From Granulicella paludicola (lineage in GTDB: Bacteria > Acidobacteriota > Terriglobia > Terriglobales > Acidobacteriaceae), in contig NZ_JAGSYC010000025.1 of assembly GCF_025685545.1 (NCBI RefSeq), positions 744,001 to 808,000 on the forward strand: a DNA stretch of 64,000 nt. Direction: 5' to 3'. Made by a program: the position numbers and the translations under genes. The notes below the pieces were generated by a model. The model was not told the origin of the DNA. It ran no database searches and worked only from the letters and a program-made list of their open reading frames with translations. This document shows positions 46,651 to 58,753 of this stretch, piece after piece. The first letter of the stretch is position 1. Each line of letters opens with the position of its first letter.

Positions 46651-47061
46651 ATGGCAGCCACGATGTACATCGTCGTTGAGGGCGAAGATCCTGGGTTCAA
46701 CATCTACGTGAATGGCCGGGAACTGGCCCGTCATGAGAGCGCCGTGGAGGAGCTGGCGCTGCGGCTCGGCGTACCTCCGCTGCTGACGTACTTCTCCGCT
46801 GATGAGAACTCAATGGCGTTGCTGATCGAAGAAGGCGCAGGCAATCCCGATCTGCTCCCTAGGCTGCCGCCTCCACAGTGGTTCGACGCGGCAGAGGGTC
46901 TGCATACCGTGAGCGCGCTGGTAGCTGCGCTGGAGACCGATCCGAAACGGCTGGGCGAACACAGCGCCGAGATACTGGCAGAACTCCACGAGTACGAGCA
47001 GGTCTTAAAGCGCACCGCCGAAAGTGGCCTGCGCTGGCATCTCGCCTTCAGCTGGCGGTAG
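46651..47061 (+). CDS. Hypothetical cytoplasmic protein
   Basis: 136 residues from ATG at 46651 (46663 is also possible); no clear ribosome-binding site. Soluble, acidic, with an N-terminal beta-rich part (MYIVVEGEDPGFNIYVNGRE), a proline-rich middle (PRLPPPQWFDAAEG) and a C-terminal helix (LAELHEYEQVLKRTAESG). The wording resembles conserved small bacterial proteins of unknown function, but I recognise no named domain. Its last 14 bases overlap the end of the convergent rmlD gene. Confidence 0.55.
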   Translation: MAATMYIVVEGEDPGFNIYVNGRELARHESAVEELALRLGVPPLLTYFSADENSMALLIEEGAGNPDLLPRLPPPQWFDAAEGLHTVSALVAALETDPKRLGEHSAEILAELHEYEQVLKRTAESGLRWHLAFSWR

Positions 47062-48031
47062 ACCCGGTCGCAATCGCCGCCATCACCTGCGCCACAGAGT
47101 CCTCCCACTTCGGCATCGTGAACCCCAGCTGTGCGCGAAGCCTCTCGCAACTCATCCGCGAGTTCAGCGGTCGCTTCGCCGGCGTCGGATAGTCACTCGT
47201 CGCGATCGGCAGCAGCCGCGCAAACCTCTGTTCCGGCTCCGCCACCTTCGCCAGCCTTACGAACTCCTCCGCAAACCCGAACCACGTCGTCTCCCCGGCA
47301 TCGCAAGCGTGATACACCCCGCCCACCTCGCGCACAGCCTCCGCCAGGGATCTGCTCGAATCCGGGTGCCCCATGTCCCGCCTTTGGGACGTGGTTTTGC
47401 AGGTCGCATCCTCCATCCTCGCCATCGTATGCACCACCAGCCGCGCTAGCGACTCCGACCACGTCGGCGCACCATGCTGATCGGCCACCACCTTCATCTC
47501 CTCACGCTCTCGCGCAAACCGCAGAATCGTCCGCAGAAAGTTATTTCCCGTCGCCCCATATACCCAGCTCGTCCGAAACACGAAGTATGCAGCCCCACTC
47601 TCCGCCAGCGCCCTCTCGCCCGCCAGCTTCGAAGCTCCATACACCCCGAGCGGTCCCGTCGCATCCGTCTCGACCCAAGGACGTTCGCCGTCGCCCGGAA
47701 ACACATAGTCCGTAGAAAACGAGATCACCGCCGCCCCCAGCGCCTTCGCCTCTTCGCCTAGCACCTTCACCGCCTCTGCATTGATCGCATACGCCAGCTC
47801 AGGCTCTTTCTCAGCCTTGTCCACTGCCGTATACGCCGCCGGATTCACAATCCACCGCGGTACCACCTCGCGTACATACCTTCGAACAGCGGCAGCATCG
47901 CTCAAATCCAGCTCACCCCGCACCGGAGCCACCACCTCAAGCCCGCGCTCCTCCGCAAACCTCTTCAATAGCGGAACCACCGCCCCACCCACCTGACCGC
48001 CTACACCCGTCAACAAAACTCGCCCTGCCAC
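47048..48031 (-). CDS. rfbD: dTDP-4-dehydrorhamnose reductase
   Basis: 327 residues of the extended short-chain dehydrogenase family. GRVLLTGVGGQVGGAV is the NADPH-binding Rossmann loop. DLSDAAAVRRYV, NPAAYTAVDKAE, STDYVFPGDGERPW and the catalytic YGASKLAGE (Y-x3-K) follow, then FRTSWVYGATGNNFLRTIL. This is RmlD/RfbD, the last step of dTDP-L-rhamnose synthesis for surface polysaccharide. GTG at 48031 has AGGAGG 4 bases upstream; the longer frame from 48094 contains that ribosome-binding site. The rmlABC genes are not in the window. A short insertion (CKTTSQRRDMGHP) sits after the substrate domain. Confidence 0.88.
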   Translation of the reverse strand: MAGRVLLTGVGGQVGGAVVPLLKRFAEERGLEVVAPVRGELDLSDAAAVRRYVREVVPRWIVNPAAYTAVDKAEKEPELAYAINAEAVKVLGEEAKALGAAVISFSTDYVFPGDGERPWVETDATGPLGVYGASKLAGERALAESGAAYFVFRTSWVYGATGNNFLRTILRFAREREEMKVVADQHGAPTWSESLARLVVHTMARMEDATCKTTSQRRDMGHPDSSRSLAEAVREVGGVYHACDAGETTWFGFAEEFVRLAKVAEPEQRFARLLPIATSDYPTPAKRPLNSRMSCERLRAQLGFTMPKWEDSVAQVMAAIATGSTAS

Positions 48032-48114
48032 ATCGCCTCCTGTCAGCATCCAAAGCGATGGTACCGTAACGCATTGGTCAAGACTGCGCCACACTCGCTA
48101 CACTCAAGCATCGA

Positions 48115-49146
48115 ATGATCGAGCGCATGAACATCTCTGCTGTGGCAAAACACGCTGGCGTCTCCAAGGCCACCGTCTCCCGCGTCATCAACGGCACCGC
48201 CCACGTCATCCCTGCCACCGCCGACCGCGTCCGTGCCTCCATCAAAGAACTCGATTTCTACCCCGACACCAGCGCCCGCACCCTCGGCTCCGGCCGCAGC
48301 CATCTCTACGGCCTCATCATCTCCGACATTACCAACCCGTATTTCCCCGAGCTCGTCAAAGCCTTCGAAGAGATCGCCGAATCCCACGGCCAGGACGTCC
48401 TCATCTCCAACACCGACTACGACCCCGCCCGCATGGAGCGCTGCGTCATCCGCATGCTCCAGCGCAAAGTCGACGGCGTCGCCATCATGACTTCCGAAAT
48501 GGAAGAGCGCCTCATCCACACCTTCAGCGAGCGCCGCATCCCCACCATCTTCATGGACACCTCCACCGCCGTCCCCGGAGCCAGCGTCGTCTCCGTCGAC
48601 TACGCCGCAGGCATCCACCAGGCCATCGCCCACCTCGTCACCCTCGGCCACACCCGCATCGGCTTTATCAGCGGCCCCGCAGCCCTCAGCTCCGCCCGCT
48701 CCCGCACCCAAGCCTTCATCGCCGCCCTCCACGCCCACGGCCTTTCCCTCGCCCCCGAGCACCTGATCGAAGCCAACCACCGCATCGAAGGCGGCCACCG
48801 GGCCATGGCCCACCTACTCGCCGCCGCAGCCCCACCCACCGCCATCCTCGGCTCCAACGACCTCACCGCCATCGGAGCCATGGGAGCCATCCACGAAGCC
48901 GGCCTCTCCATTCCCCACGACATCTCCATCATCGGCTTCGACGACATCCAGCTCAGCGCCTACACCCAGCCCGCCCTCACCACCATCCACGTCCCCCGAG
49001 CCGAGCTAGCCGCCACCGCCTTCCGCAGCCTCTTCCACCGCACCGACGCCACCACCCCCGACACCCCGCGCCCTCGCAGCCAGGCCCACCTCATCCAACC
49101 CACCCTCCTCATCCGCAACTCCACCGCCCGCCCTCGCCTACAATAG
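48115..49146 (+). CDS. LacI-family transcriptional regulator
   Basis: 343 residues. The N-terminal helix-turn-helix and hinge are standard (NISAVAKHAGVSKATVSRVING, DRVRASIKELDFYPDTSARTLGSG). A periplasmic-binding-protein-like effector domain follows (LYGLIISDITNPYFPELV, VDGVAIMTS, GHTRIGFISGP, TAILGSNDLTAIGAM, DISIIGFDDIQLSAYTQPALTTI). It should repress a sugar-related operon, but no obvious target is adjacent; rmlD is divergent, 83 bases away. The start may be ATG at 48115 or 48127. Codon choice is extremely biased to C over G. Confidence 0.9.
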   Translation: MIERMNISAVAKHAGVSKATVSRVINGTAHVIPATADRVRASIKELDFYPDTSARTLGSGRSHLYGLIISDITNPYFPELVKAFEEIAESHGQDVLISNTDYDPARMERCVIRMLQRKVDGVAIMTSEMEERLIHTFSERRIPTIFMDTSTAVPGASVVSVDYAAGIHQAIAHLVTLGHTRIGFISGPAALSSARSRTQAFIAALHAHGLSLAPEHLIEANHRIEGGHRAMAHLLAAAAPPTAILGSNDLTAIGAMGAIHEAGLSIPHDISIIGFDDIQLSAYTQPALTTIHVPRAELAATAFRSLFHRTDATTPDTPRPRSQAHLIQPTLLIRNSTARPRLQ

Positions 49147-52500: not shown

Positions 52501-55500
52501 TCATGCTTGCGCCGCACCATCCCCAACAAGATGGTTGTTGATCGCAAACAACGCCAGTTCCAACCGATTCCAGACACCAACCTTGTCGAAGATGTTCTTC
52601 AAATGACGCTTCACCGTCTCTTCGGCAATATCGCACTCGCGCGCAATGTCCTTGTTCGTCATTCCCTGCGCAATCAGTCGCACAATCTCCAGCTCGCGCA
52701 CAGTCAGACCAAACGTGTTCTTCGGAGGCTGTTTAATCTCCTCCATCAGATCGTTCAGAACCTGCACCAGGTTCTGAACTGGCTTTCGTCCCAGCCAATA
52801 ATGACCTTGCATCACAGTAGAAATGCACATCGCCAGATCGGTCGTCAGCGCATCCTTCAGCACAACGCCGCGAGCGCCGAGCTGCAAAGCCTCCAGAATC
52901 TCGCGCTGGCTGATCGCTGAAGTCAGCAGGATCGTCTTTGTCGGCACCTGAATCGTCGTGAGCTCGCGCAGCGTCTCCAACCCTGGAAGTTCCGGCATGT
53001 TCAGGTCGAGCAGTAGAATGTCAGGCTGCATCTCGCGCATCTCGCGAATCGCTTCCTTGCCATCTGAAGCCTCGCCAACGACAACATACTCAGCGTGACT
53101 TTGTAGCATCCTTCGCACGCCAAAACGCACAACTGGATGATCGTCCGCAATCAGAATGCGAACGTTCTTCGAAGCGTCATTCGCTCCATAAAGCGTCCGA
53201 GTTCGGATCACCTCGCGGTTCAGCCGCTCGACGATGAGCGCGATGCGGCGATCGTCTTTGTCCGCCGCCGCCGCTTCCAGCTCAGTGCAGATCGCAGTCA
53301 CAGTCGTAATGCCAACAGTCGTGCTTCCGCCCTTCAAGCGGTGTCCGAGCCGCTGTAGCTCTGCATAGTCGCAGGCTTTGGCAGCAACCACGATCTCGGC
53401 GAGGTCCGACTCGACCTGGAGCTGGAACTCATTCATCACCTCGGCGACGAGCTCATCGCCGCCGATGCTCTGCAGCTCTGCCAGCTGGCCGCTCAGCGCG
53501 GACTTCGCGGCGGTCTCGGCGGAGGTGACGACGGTGCGCTCCTGATCTGGATTCATCTCCGCCCAGCGATCCAGCGCAAGCTTGAGGTCGGCCATCCGGA
53601 TCGGCTTGGTGAGGTACTCATTCATGCCAGCGGCGAGACAGATCTCCTCATCTCCCTGCATAGCATTCGCGGTCATCGCGATGACATACGGGCCGTCTTC
53701 GGCGGGCGAGCGCTGCCGAATCCTGCGCGTCGCGTCGAGACCGTCCATCTCCGGCATCTGCACGTCCATCAGCACCACGTCATAAGGCTGTCGGTTGAGA
53801 GCATCGAGCACTTCCAGCCCATTCCCGGCGACATCGGCGCGATAGCCCAGGCTTTTAATCATCTTCATCGCAACCTTCTGGTTGATCGGGTTGTCTTCGG
53901 CGACGAGGATGCGGATGCTGCGCTTGACGGTCGGTCCACTCTGCGCGCTGGCGATGGGAGCGGAAACGGGGATGCCTCCGGCGAAGAGCTCGGACAACAT
54001 GGATTCGAGGCCCTGCGAGCGGATCGGTTTGCTGAGCCAGCCTGCGGGGACGATGCCTGCGTGGAGTTCCGTGTTGCGGGCCCCGAGCGAGGTGAGCATG
54101 ACGAGCGGTAACTTCTTCCGTCTACTAGACGCCAGCGCGGAGCGGACGGCTGCGCCCTCTTTGCTTGCCACGGTGTTGGCGAGCAGGACGGCGTCGACGT
54201 CGTTGTTTTCAAGTAACGTCTGGGCTTGGGCCGCAGTAGCGGCCTGGAGCAGCTTGAGACCAAGGCGTTTCGCCTGAGCCTCAATGGTACGTGCGCTCAG
54301 AGGGCTGGCATCGATCAGAACGACTGTCTTTCCTTTGAAAAGATGGTGCGTGGCCGCAGAGGGGCGTGATCGCGCCTGCATGGTGAAGAAGAAGGTTGCA
54401 CCTTCGCCGGGAACGCTTTCAACGCGCAGGGTTCCGCCCATGAGGATGGCGAGCCGCTGGCTGATGGCGAGGCCTAAGCCCGTGCCTCCGAAGTGGCGCG
54501 TGATGGAGCTGTCGGCCTGAGTAAAAGGCTGGAAAAGGCGATCGAGACGATCCTTCGCAATGCCGGTACCGGTATCCTTTACCGCGAAAAGTAGTCGAAG
54601 TTGGTTGCCGCGCTTATTGTCGGCCGAAACCGTGACGAGGACCTCACCGGCAGCAGTGAACTTGACGGCATTGGAAAGCAGGTTGACGAGGACCTGTCGC
54701 ACGCGGGTGATGTCGGCGACGACCAGCGAAGGCAGGTTTTCGTCGAGAAGGTATCCGATCTCGAGTCCTTTGGCTGCAGCGGCAGGAGCAACGAGGTCGA
54801 GCGCATCCTCGACACATTCGGCAAGATTGAACTCCAGTTCTTCGAGCTCAAGGCGAAGAGACTCGATTTTAGAGAAGTCGAGAATGTCGTTGATGATCTC
54901 AAGAAGATTTTCGCCGGAGGAGCGAACGGTCTCGGCATACTCGCGCTGCTCGCGAGTGAGAGGCGTTTCGAGGAGTAGACCTGTCATGCCGATGACAGCG
55001 TTCATCGGCGTGCGGATCTCATGGCTGACCGTGGCGACGAACTCGCCTTTCGCACGGTTGGCTGCTTCAGCGACGTCCCTTGCGTTCTTAAGCGCAAGTT
55101 CGACCTGATGGTGAGAGTCGTTCTGTGGCGGTGTGAAGCGGAGGCAGCAGATGTATCCGGGTGTGTCCTCGTTGACTGTGGAGCTCAGCGAGAGAGAAAG
55201 CGGAATAGAGCTGCCATTGCGTTTGCGTCCGTCGATGGGCGTGCTGATCTTTTCGGTGGAGTGCTCCTGTTCCTGCGCCCTATGGGTGAGGAATTCTTCG
55301 ACATTCTGATGCTCGGGAACGGTAAGGAGATCGACAACGCTCTTGCCGGGTAGTTGACCTGAGGCGTAGCCGAGGAGTGCTTCGGCGGCCGGATTGGCGA
55401 GCTCTACGCGTCCATCCGCATCCATGATGAGAATGCCATCGATAGAGCCGTTAAGTACGCTGCGTAGCAGAGACTCCGCGCGTTTCAGGTCGTCTATCTG

Positions 55501-55518
55501 TCTTGGTGCCGTTTGCAT
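52501..55518 (-). CDS. Hybrid histidine kinase with complete phosphorelay and fused LuxR-type output
   Basis: 1,005 residues, no membrane helix. Domains in order: coiled start and PAS (about 15-130), HisKA with His166 (ATVSHEIRTPMNAVIGMTG), HATPase (LLSNAVKFT, KDTGTGI, GGTGLGLAISQRL), a receiver without phospho-Asp (397-512, VLLANTV where D is expected), a canonical receiver (534-655, Asp585 in VVLMDVQMPEMDG), Hpt with His726 (LGHRLKGGSTTVG), a third receiver (785-905, Asp838 in ILLLDLNMPELPG), and a NarL/LuxR helix-turn-helix (936-1000, LTVRELEIVRLIAQGMTNKDI, AEETVKRHLKNIF). The protein therefore holds every step of a His-Asp-His-Asp relay plus the DNA-binding output. No neighbouring regulator exists. 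The PAS ligand is unknown. Confidence 0.9.
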   Translation of the reverse strand: MQTAPRQIDDLKRAESLLRSVLNGSIDGILIMDADGRVELANPAAEALLGYASGQLPGKSVVDLLTVPEHQNVEEFLTHRAQEQEHSTEKISTPIDGRKRNGSSIPLSLSLSSTVNEDTPGYICCLRFTPPQNDSHHQVELALKNARDVAEAANRAKGEFVATVSHEIRTPMNAVIGMTGLLLETPLTREQREYAETVRSSGENLLEIINDILDFSKIESLRLELEELEFNLAECVEDALDLVAPAAAAKGLEIGYLLDENLPSLVVADITRVRQVLVNLLSNAVKFTAAGEVLVTVSADNKRGNQLRLLFAVKDTGTGIAKDRLDRLFQPFTQADSSITRHFGGTGLGLAISQRLAILMGGTLRVESVPGEGATFFFTMQARSRPSAATHHLFKGKTVVLIDASPLSARTIEAQAKRLGLKLLQAATAAQAQTLLENNDVDAVLLANTVASKEGAAVRSALASSRRKKLPLVMLTSLGARNTELHAGIVPAGWLSKPIRSQGLESMLSELFAGGIPVSAPIASAQSGPTVKRSIRILVAEDNPINQKVAMKMIKSLGYRADVAGNGLEVLDALNRQPYDVVLMDVQMPEMDGLDATRRIRQRSPAEDGPYVIAMTANAMQGDEEICLAAGMNEYLTKPIRMADLKLALDRWAEMNPDQERTVVTSAETAAKSALSGQLAELQSIGGDELVAEVMNEFQLQVESDLAEIVVAAKACDYAELQRLGHRLKGGSTTVGITTVTAICTELEAAAADKDDRRIALIVERLNREVIRTRTLYGANDASKNVRILIADDHPVVRFGVRRMLQSHAEYVVVGEASDGKEAIREMREMQPDILLLDLNMPELPGLETLRELTTIQVPTKTILLTSAISQREILEALQLGARGVVLKDALTTDLAMCISTVMQGHYWLGRKPVQNLVQVLNDLMEEIKQPPKNTFGLTVRELEIVRLIAQGMTNKDIARECDIAEETVKRHLKNIFDKVGVWNRLELALFAINNHLVGDGAAQA

Positions 55519-56021
55519 CCACTACCTCATCGTTCCAGCGTTGGTGAAGTTCGAAGCCTGGCCAAGGCGCGGCAACAGACTTTCAGCACGCGTCTCGTTG
55601 TGTTTCGGTCGTACACCATAATCTATTGCAAGCGTGAAGGCGACTCCAGCGGAATCTGTCAATCGATGACTCGATTTAGTTGATCTTGATCGATGGGAGT
55701 GGCAGGAGGAGTAAGAATTTACAGTCACGTTACCGAGTTCTGGGGCTATCGAGGATTTCCACAGAAATATACGAATTTGTGCGTTTGGTGCCAGCGCGCG
55801 TGTCGTGACGTGTCCCGCTTCGGAACAGGTAAGTCGCAAACATGGGTGTGGAGGTAAGCTCTGCCCCTTTTGAGGAAGTGCTGAAAGGCACGGGCAAACC
55901 TATGCTTGTCACAGGTTGACTTGCAATGGGTTGAGTACTGTTGTCAAGCAAATTGCGGGCCTCTCTCTGGAGAATGTCTTCATTGGACAACTGCTCGTAC
56001 GACCCGTTTCGTCCTGTGAAG
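55519..56021. other. Intergenic region between divergent genes
   Basis: About 500 bases between the hybrid kinase and the phosphodiesterase-like gene. It must hold both promoters. If the phosphodiesterase starts upstream (ATG 55974 or TTG 55941) the gap is shorter. No gene or clear motif was seen. Confidence 0.45.
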
Positions 56022-57217: not shown

Positions 57218-57313
57218 TGACCATGCAGATACAGCACGGGCACCATCAGCCACTCTGCTTTGCCAGACGGCTTATCGCCGTCCCGGCTAAACACTACAAC
57301 GGGGTCACAACGA

Positions 57314-58034
57314 ATGTTTTCTATCGTGGGAATACTGGTCGTCTTTGGCTGCGTGATTACTGGGTTCTTGATGGAGAAGGGCAAGCTAGCCGTTCTGATC
57401 CAGCCATCAGAATTGGTGACCATCGGGGGAGCTGCGATTGGAACTGTTCTTACTGCAAACCCTATCCATATTTTGAAGAAAACAATCAGCAGCGTGCTTG
57501 GGGTGCTGAAAGGATCGCCGTATACGAAGAAACGCTATACGGAGACGCTGAAGATGATGTTCGACGTGCTGAGCAAGGCTCGCAAGGAAGGGTCGGTTGC
57601 AATCGAGGCTGATGTGGAGGATCCGGACAAGAGCCAGATCTTTGCGAAGTATCCGGGCTTCCTAAAAGACCATCACGCGCGGGACTTTGTGTGCGATACG
57701 CTGCGGATGGGCATCACCGGGGGTGTGAGTGGCATTCGATGTCGATCAGGTAATGCAGCAAATGGAAAATATCGCCGAAGTCGGCCGGGGGATCGCCGTC
57801 GCTTTTGTCGCAACCATTTACGGTGTGGGTGCGGCCAACCTCTTTTTATTGCCTTGCGCCGGTCGCATCCGTGTTCTCAATTCCCGGCGTCAGGCTCTGC
57901 GCGAGATGATCGTCGAAGGCACCGCAGGCATCGCCGAAAGTCTCAGCGCTGGCGCCGTCGAGCAGCGACTTAGACCGTTCGTTTATGTGGGGCCGGCGTC
58001 GGCGAAGCAGCGCCCTTCATTGGTGACCCGATGA
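57314..58034 (+). pseudogene. motA: motA, frameshifted and internally deleted
   Basis: The N-terminal part (MFSIVGILVVFGCVITGFL, PSELVTIGGAAIGTVLTANP, DFVCDTLRMGITGGVS) is a normal MotA start with two helices. Near 57730 the frame breaks: GGVS continues as AFDVDQVMQQ only in the +1-shifted frame, consistent with one extra G in AGTGGCATTC. In that frame MENIAEVGRGIAVAFVATIYGVGAANLFLL gives the last helix, but the segment expected between DQVMQQ and MENIAEVG (roughly 40-45 residues with helix 3 and the conserved proline) is missing. The shifted frame ends in an ATGA overlap with motB. A functional stator subunit is unlikely. Confidence 0.82.
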
Positions 58035-58753
58035 GCCTGCAGGAGCATGAGAGTGAATCCTCCACAGAGCGCTGGACGGTTTCCTACGCTGATTTCATGA
58101 CGCTTCTCTTTGCGCTCTTTGTCGTTCTTTTCGCATCCTCCCACCATGAGAAGCACGATATTCAGCAGGTATCCTCTGCCGTGAAGCAGGGCTTCCAGCA
58201 ACTCGGCGCTTTTCCCGCCGCCGGTGTAAACAGCGCAGCAAGGACTTCTGATGCAGGTCCTGTTTTAGTGAATCGAAGCGCGGGGGTCGATGTGATTGCA
58301 CTGCAGCGGGACTTGACCTCTGCACTCGGGAAAGAGATTGCGCGTAATGAGGTTGTGCTGAGGATGACTCCGGACGGCTTCGTCATCAGCCTGCATGAAC
58401 TCGGTTTCTTCAGGAGCGGAGAGGCGACGCTACTCGCGGACGCGACGGGAAAGATGCAGCGCATAGCTTCCGTCCTGATGAAGTACGGGCTCGATATGCG
58501 TGTGGAAGGTCACACTGACAACCTCCCGATCCACACGCTTGAGTTTAACTCCAATTGGGACCTTTCGATCGCGCGCGCAACTAACGTTGCGATGATGTTA
58601 ATAGATGACGGACACTTCAATCCAGCGCGTCTTTCCATTGCTGGCTACGGTCAATATCATCCCGTCACCACGAATGACACACCATTGGGGCGCCAATCGA
58701 ATCGCAGGGTCGATATCGTCATCGTCACAGCAACGAAGATGGACAACGAGTAG
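58031..58753 (+). CDS. motB: Flagellar stator protein MotB
   Basis: 240 residues. A short cytoplasmic start, one helix with the proton-accepting Asp21 (WTVSYADFMTLLFALFVVLF), a plug/linker, then an OmpA-type peptidoglycan-binding domain (DMRVEGHTDNLPIHTLEF, SNWDLSIARATNVAMMLID, LSIAGYGQYHPV, RQSNRRVDIVIV). It forms the stator with MotA and anchors it to the wall. Its ATG overlaps the motA stop by 4 bases. All conserved residues look intact although motA upstream is broken. Confidence 0.92.
   Translation: MSLQEHESESSTERWTVSYADFMTLLFALFVVLFASSHHEKHDIQQVSSAVKQGFQQLGAFPAAGVNSAARTSDAGPVLVNRSAGVDVIALQRDLTSALGKEIARNEVVLRMTPDGFVISLHELGFFRSGEATLLADATGKMQRIASVLMKYGLDMRVEGHTDNLPIHTLEFNSNWDLSIARATNVAMMLIDDGHFNPARLSIAGYGQYHPVTTNDTPLGRQSNRRVDIVIVTATKMDNE

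Follow-up and report, generated by a model that had tools for sequence, protein, structure and literature searches.

A predicted one-chain phosphorelay of Granulicella paludicola, probably derived from a hybrid histidine kinase fused to a NarL-type regulator

The stretch of DNA analyzed here (64,000 nucleotides of Granulicella paludicola, contig NZ_JAGSYC010000025.1, positions 744,001 to 808,000; hereafter the window) carries on its minus strand an uninterrupted frame of 1,005 codons (55518..52501; list of open reading frames [ORFs] of the window), predicted to encode a complete His-Asp-His-Asp phosphorelay together with its DNA-binding output. Inspection of the upstream sequence revealed an in-frame TAG two codons 5′ of the ATG; the latter is, thus, the first possible start. 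Pfam and alignment gave the domain order PAS, HisKA, HATPase, pseudo-receiver, receiver, Hpt, receiver, and LuxR/NarL-type helix-turn-helix (HTH), with three Response_reg stretches being recognized by Pfam. A first-pass annotation, made from the letters and the ORF list, had proposed this single frame and order, as well as H166, D585, H726, and D838 as the phospho-residues; the former was confirmed by the ORF list and Pfam, the latter by motif reading and alignment. The features, in window coordinates, are as follows:

52501..55518, minus strand: whole gene, predicted one-chain His-Asp-His-Asp phosphorelay with LuxR/NarL-type output (ORF list, 1,005 residues, ATG start)
55141..55467, minus strand: PAS (residues 18-126), the sole recognized sensor domain (PF00989, E 4.6e-16)
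54859..55053, minus strand: HisKA (residues 156-220; Pfam), with H166 at 55021-55023
54373..54714, minus strand: HATPase_c (residues 269-382; Pfam, E 2.4e-28)
53998..54324, minus strand: pseudo-receiver (residues about 399-507; alignment), with A447 replacing the phospho-Asp
53572..53910, minus strand: receiver 2 (residues 537-649; Pfam), with D585 at 53764-53766
53236..53439, minus strand: Hpt (residues 694-761; Pfam, E 1.9e-09), with H726 at 53341-53343
53164..53223, minus strand: putative fusion junction, the linker from Hpt to the output receiver (residues about 766-785; site of the stop and start codons in two-gene sister pairs)
52819..53166, minus strand: receiver 3, the output receiver (residues about 785-900; alignment and own hidden Markov models [HMMs]), with D838 at 53005-53007
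52543..52707, minus strand: LuxR/GerE-type HTH (residues 938-992; Pfam GerE, E 6.2e-18)

The C-terminal part matches both PF00072 and PF00196, as is characteristic of NarL/FixJ response regulators, and in a structure-database comparison residues 786-992 matched NarL (1a04; E 7.6e-33). Kinase, receiver, Hpt, and terminal receiver, each with its predicted phospho-residue, are present in a single open frame, as expected of a one-protein phosphorelay. No membrane-type segment was found in the protein (maximum 19-residue hydropathy 1.29). The length of 10-12 residues originally given for the linker behind Hpt holds only when the last helix of Hpt is taken to extend to approximately residue 775; between the Pfam and HMM edges the distance is about 19-23 residues.

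The G/C skew at third codon positions is approximately −0.4 in the part encoding PAS, kinase, and the first receiver and approximately +0.4 in that encoding receiver 3 and HTH (52501-55518, minus strand). The step lies near residue 536, away from the fusion point. The swing exceeds those between quarters of 24 other large frames compared and is weaker in the homologues of genomes G213 and G645.

Searching for proteins similar to residues 660-1005 yielded 105 proteins. Among them, 26 clusters (P0001-P0026) are open in one frame from Hpt through HTH; P0001 is the window's own cluster, the representative of which differs from the window protein near the C-terminus, and the 25 others are 47-88% identical to it. 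Homologues that are always split behind Hpt, which had been named as evidence against a fusion, are not what was found, although three further proteins (P0030, P0107, and P0108) do stop before the HTH. With own HMMs, all clusters but one were found to contain kinase, receiver, Hpt, receiver, and HTH (25 of 26), the exception being P0008, which lacks the kinase half. The input side is variable: as judged from precomputed Pfam annotation and length, 12 clusters have HNOBA plus PAS, four have two PAS domains without HNOBA, six have one PAS, and four (P0007, P0008, P0011, and P0018) have none, some of which gene calling may have shortened. A profile search added one more fused member (P0106), and GerE was not present outside the fused set among the 120 matches listed of 7,037 over threshold. 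Within the family, the fusion is rare and patchy. At thresholds of 1e-100 and 1e-150, and with some genomes being incomplete, it was present in 1 of 28 genomes of the genus; in the family sample, 4 of 398 genomes (from 3 of 79 genera) had it, and in genus g10, 2 of 80. A universal lineage trait is, thus, ruled out. In a phylum-wide survey (396 genomes, 1e-120), only the window genome and G213 matched through the HTH.

In the window protein, H166, D585, H726, and D838 are all in the places expected from motif reading and alignment. Across a 26-row alignment of the fused clusters, His166 is kept in all 24 rows reaching the column (two rows are gapped), D585 in 26 of 26, and H726 in 25 of 26; D838 and K888 are invariant, and T866 is kept in 24 rows. 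The first receiver was rightly described as devoid of the phosphorylatable residue: A447 aligns with D585 of the second receiver, and none of the 26 rows has Asp in this column (Ala in 10, Ser in 10, Gly in four, Pro and Glu in one each). Taken in isolation, this domain scored 27.9 bits against Response_reg (E 2.9e-06), which is below the cut-off of 30.2 bits, and it matched receiver structures weakly (best E 7.4e-06). That it serves as a regulatory platform, as had been proposed, appears plausible by analogy. Median identity to the window protein (21-25 rows for each domain) was 82% for receiver 3, 77% for HTH, 69% for the kinase, 67% for receiver 2, 49% for Hpt, 34% for the pseudo-receiver, and 31% for PAS; the output half is, thus, the best conserved part across the fused family and the input the least.

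A stand-alone relative of the regulator half, about 45-58% identical, is present in most family genomes (a match to the regulator half at 1e-50 was found in 78 of 100, fused copies counted). The window's own genome contains no second copy, the next best match being 33% identical. Closer stand-alone regulators (57-67%) are separate genes in 13 further genomes. In G450, G476, and G492, such a gene lies directly behind one for a kinase with HisKA, HATPase, receiver, and Hpt: in G450, a kinase of 958 residues and a regulator of 224 (67% identical to that of the window) are 31 bp apart; in G476, kinase (647 residues) and regulator (232 residues) overlap by 4 bp as called; and in G492, the frames of the kinase (645 residues) and the regulator also overlap as called. 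In all three pairs, the stop and start codons sit where the window gene reads through. These genomes provide the comparison with separately encoded partners that had been suggested at the outset. Other close regulators have different neighbors: in G488, an ORF with Hpt only; in G543, one with a receiver; and in G562, a different kinase. One locus considered as a simple pair (L024, in G417) was rejected: the match runs to residue 832 with a TGA, but a further kinase-like frame is located behind it.

In 9 of 13 family loci inspected (L013, L014, L015, L017, L018, L019, L170, L173, and L174; one of the nine a weak match), a small receiver-containing gene directly precedes a NarL-type regulator. 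Receiver plus Hpt in this small gene was confirmed by Pfam in L013, and Hpt was also matched by BLAST in L170 and L173. No kinase was detected near this receiver-regulator pair by BLAST with the window domains in the stretches read.

In the regulator tree, 29 fused rows formed one clade (support 100/98), with the regulator of G450 as the nearest two-gene row, albeit weakly supported (81/41). This tree had been rebuilt without seven outgroup and two duplicate rows, because a first version with very long outgroup rows gave 43/99 for the fused clade. The kinase halves (P0008, having none, was left out) also formed one clade in a first sample (Shimodaira-Hasegawa-like approximate likelihood-ratio test [SH-aLRT] 100). 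A larger kinase tree, from which L098 and L024_1 were dropped, contained 14 added proteins hand-picked from the 120 matches listed; its nearest rows outside the fused clade were two HNOBA kinases ending at receiver 2 (P0126 and P0132; SH-aLRT 87). Because the sister two-gene pairs are collinear with the window gene and all 29 regulator rows of the fused type group together, a single fusion event would fit the whole fused set best.

The fusion of a kinase with a NarL-type regulator, as called in the first-pass annotation, is, hence, supported by collinear gene pairs at three sister loci and by the single fused clade. Very probably, the window protein is a cytosolic one-chain phosphorelay that arose when a hybrid histidine kinase was joined to a NarL-type regulator, the latter most probably being its operon neighbor and, as judged from gene adjacency, its putative cognate partner. 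From what is known of the constituent families, the PAS domain would set the autophosphorylation of H166 within a kinase dimer, a task which HNOBA, two PAS domains, and an H-NOX partner would fulfil in longer relatives. The motifs suggest that phosphate would then travel from H166 via D585 and H726 to D838, upon which phosphorylated receiver 3 would free the HTH for promoter binding. When the signal is absent, reverse flow and contact between receiver and HTH would hold the output off. Tuning of the kinase is the probable role of the pseudo-receiver, as in ShkA, albeit without the DDR motif of the latter.

Several observations weigh against this interpretation. We infer the phosphotransfer steps from motifs, and these are not intact in every relative: H726 is Arg in P0026, K729 is Ile in P0022 and Arg in P0025, E167 is Gln in P0009 and P0010 (which also have an altered ATP lid), and the G box of P0011 is altered. 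It is possible that P0009, P0010, P0011, P0022, and P0026, with their intact output half, are kinase-dead or relay-free forms. Also, the larger kinase tree places the early-ending proteins within the fused clade. Of these, P0030 stops shortly after entering receiver 3, P0107 within Hpt, and P0108 behind receiver 2; they may, with some reason, be regarded as later breakage or as miscalled frames after a single fusion. Taken together, altered residues and early-stopping frames mean that the full relay is not kept everywhere. The fused kinase rows, furthermore, join the Hpt-less P0126 and P0132 rather than the kinase of G450, and with 4 of 398 family genomes containing it, the fusion does not represent a core function. 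Finally, no target site was found: no inverted repeat of at least 10 bases is present in 55500-55960, and promoter-like matches (1 vs 1.2 in shuffles) as well as a terminator scan did not exceed the shuffles.

The position of P0126 and P0132 in the kinase tree would be accounted for if an HNOBA-type hybrid kinase ending at receiver 2 had captured a separate Hpt plus regulator unit, for example, a receiver-Hpt gene in front of the common paralogue. The receiver-containing ORF directly before a 46-58% identical stand-alone regulator in the nine loci mentioned above, and the Hpt-only ORF before the 61% identical regulator of G488, also speak for this route. However, the regulators nearest to the fused ones include those of G450, G476, and G492, which follow kinases with an Hpt of their own. 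The Hpt sequences discriminate neither origin, because, fused loci aside, the fused Hpt is 26-37% identical to the BLAST-matched candidates. We regard this route as possible but doubtful; it concerns the origin only and is compatible with the working mechanism.

A second alternative, that the protein is a decaying or kinase-independent regulator, with the kinase half a mere scaffold and DNA binding either relay-free or driven by phosphate from outside, draws on the changed catalytic residues listed above and on the far better conservation of the output half compared with the sensor. Considering that the window copy holds every expected residue, that D585 and D838 are invariant, and that H726 is lost in one row only, it appears unlikely. 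Joining of two genes by a sequencing or assembly error (a lost stop or a frameshift) has nothing in its favor, the early-ending P0030, P0107, and P0108 being the opposite case. Against it, 26 clusters of varied source, with identities as low as 47%, keep the frame open, as do the genomes G213, G645, and G503; an artefact is, therefore, ruled out for the family and highly improbable for the gene at hand.

The longer relatives indicate what the input may once have been. In G645 and G213, the long fused gene is immediately preceded by an H-NOX gene (PF07700). In G503, contig C1 has an H-NOX close to its end, which leads into the initial 92 residues of an almost identical copy of the fused gene; the full-length version is on contig C368. 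All three long-form loci with readable upstream DNA, thus, have a linked H-NOX, the stop codon of which overlaps the kinase ATG in G213 and G503, with the frames also overlapping in G645. The linked proteins contain a His at position 104 and a YxSxR motif, which we take to be heme-binding marks; they are 49-84% identical to each other and 20-30% to four other H-NOX proteins of the family. Regardless of its kind, H-NOX was present in 18 of the 300 family genomes searched, namely in all four with the fusion vs 14 of the 296 others (Fisher 9.3e-06, assuming no fused genome among the 300 beyond the four known). When the window genome is left out, its H-NOX being unlinked and of another subtype, the ratio is 3 of 3 vs 14 of 296 (Fisher 1.5e-04). 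No H-NOX was present in the two-gene-type genomes G450, G476, G488, and G492; G543, of the same set, has one of the window genome's subtype region type, unlinked to its regulator.

In the 64-kb window, neither a linked H-NOX (best tblastn with that of G645, E 0.72) nor an HNOBA remnant (best E 0.19) was detected, and a second-PAS query matched, at E below 0.01, only the protein's own PAS. In the regulator tree, the HNOBA-free forms, including the window copy, group inside the long forms (support 100/86), which makes a single loss of HNOBA in the lineage leading to the window copy probable. We give about equal weight to accepting and rejecting the following scenario: from the start or soon afterwards, the fused family was a two-gene nitric oxide-to-promoter circuit, composed of an H-NOX heme sensor and, with its start overlapped by the H-NOX stop codon, one polypeptide with HNOBA-PAS-PAS, full His-Asp-His-Asp relay, and DNA-binding switch, and the window protein later dropped the nitric oxide input, reading another cytosolic cue via its single PAS while keeping the output. 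If true, the window branch would be a case of sensor turnover on a locked output chain.

The window's own genome encodes a stand-alone H-NOX (contig C22:186224-186700; L200:7222-7737) that carries His103 and YxSxR; the frame behind it resembles a Y-family DNA polymerase. This H-NOX is unlikely to be a partner of the fused protein, as it is on another contig and of another subtype, being 25-26% identical to the linked H-NOX proteins and 56% identical to that of G656.

Elsewhere in the window, a protein which, by the look of its sequence, we take to be MotA-like is apparently split over two overlapping frames (57260-57973 and 57729-58034; together 57260-58034, plus strand) and followed by a presumably MotB/OmpA-like frame (58031-58753). 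Two adjoining frames at 48115-49146 (plus strand) and 47048-48094 (minus strand) have opposite extreme third-position skews of about −0.8 and +0.6.

Fusion of a kinase with its regulator is a natural test of why two-component partners usually remain separate. Among the relatives described here, kinase and regulator occur both as two genes and fused, and some fused members have changed sensors or relay residues, so that cost and benefit of tethering could be tested with natural pairs; possible effects are insulation, as proposed in the first-pass annotation, speed, loss of amplification, and permanent dimerization of the DNA-binding domain. To our knowledge, and within a limited literature search, no nitric oxide-to-promoter phosphorelay would be more compact than the long forms with their linked H-NOX. 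No description of a protein with this architecture was found in the open-licence PMC literature (titles and beginnings of abstracts, among the matches listed), which does not prove that none exists. As such, phosphorelays encoded by one gene and fusions of kinase and regulator are known kinds, as is evident from excerpts of the papers cited here and below (PMC3018481, PMC4558063, PMC11253607). What sets the present family apart from these is that a complete relay is followed by a LuxR-type output, that a pseudo-receiver is added, and that the long forms are linked to H-NOX.

In the 2010 census, as excerpted, 85 of 307 TRPR foci were single-gene phosphorelays, and 81 of 105 five-domain TRRRP foci were of the two-gene TRRP-R type (PMC3018481). 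Single-gene TRPR proteins have all four phospho-domains in one gene, to which the window protein adds the pseudo-receiver and the DNA-binding domain; TRRP-R is its two-gene form, as present in the sister lineages. A "one protein phosphorelay" has also been drawn, and 982 HKRR1HPtRR2 proteins counted, although the type names may not give the domain order (PMC4558063, in excerpt). Simpler kinase-NarL fusions appear to exist elsewhere, as judged from their domain composition: P0028, P0031, P0039, and P0044, 29-51% identical to the window protein over the regulator part, combine HATPase, receiver, and GerE according to precomputed Pfam annotation, with no Hpt listed. The first three carry HisKA_3 (PF07730), whereas the order in P0044 is kinase fragment, receiver, HTH.

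The order of HisKA, HATPase, pseudo-receiver, receiver, and Hpt, with a NarL/GacA-type regulator last, resembles BarA/GacS with UvrY/GacA, and in this respect the kinase was aptly called BarA-like. It differs from BarA/GacS in that kinase and regulator are one chain devoid of a membrane segment; it also scored 469.9 bits against NF008318, compared with a curated cut-off of 890, and was, therefore, not assigned to the BarA/GacS equivalog. The nearest unfused kinases in the tree are of the HNOBA type ending at receiver 2. Structure 6qrj, listed as "Hybrid kinase" and presumably ShkA of Caulobacter, is collinear with residues 159-653 over kinase, pseudo-receiver, and receiver (E 1.6e-76). The ShkA chain lacks Hpt, receiver 3, and HTH, all of which are present in the window protein; gating by cyclic di-GMP of the ShkA type was rejected, because the DDR motif of the inter-receiver linker is absent from all 26 rows. 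For ShkA, a regulatory role of the pseudo-receiver has been shown, and one has been proposed for GacS/BarA and RcsC (PMC7010744, in excerpt).

Like HqsK of Vibrio parahaemolyticus, which shares an operon with hnoX and is controlled by H-NOX (PMC6759604, in excerpt), the long-form relatives adjoin an H-NOX gene. HqsK passes phosphate to the separate LuxU and LuxO, whereas the fused family keeps Hpt, receiver, and HTH in the chain; the window copy differs from the H-NOX-associated kinases in having neither a linked H-NOX nor HNOBA. The hybrid two-component systems (HTCS) of Bacteroides, which use a two-step relay, likewise unite a kinase, a receiver, and a DNA-binding domain within one chain. 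The window protein additionally has a pseudo-receiver, a second receiver, and Hpt, and with a GerE/LuxR-type instead of an AraC-type HTH, PAS as the only sensor, and no membrane-type segment, it is not a member of the Bacteroides-type HTCS, in which the sensor is membrane-bound and the output of the AraC type (PMC11253607, in excerpt). In HTCS, the DNA-binding domains tethered to the kinase dimer need receiver-HTH inhibition to stay off (PMC11253607); the same problem must be solved in the window protein, of which receiver 3 and HTH are the best conserved part.

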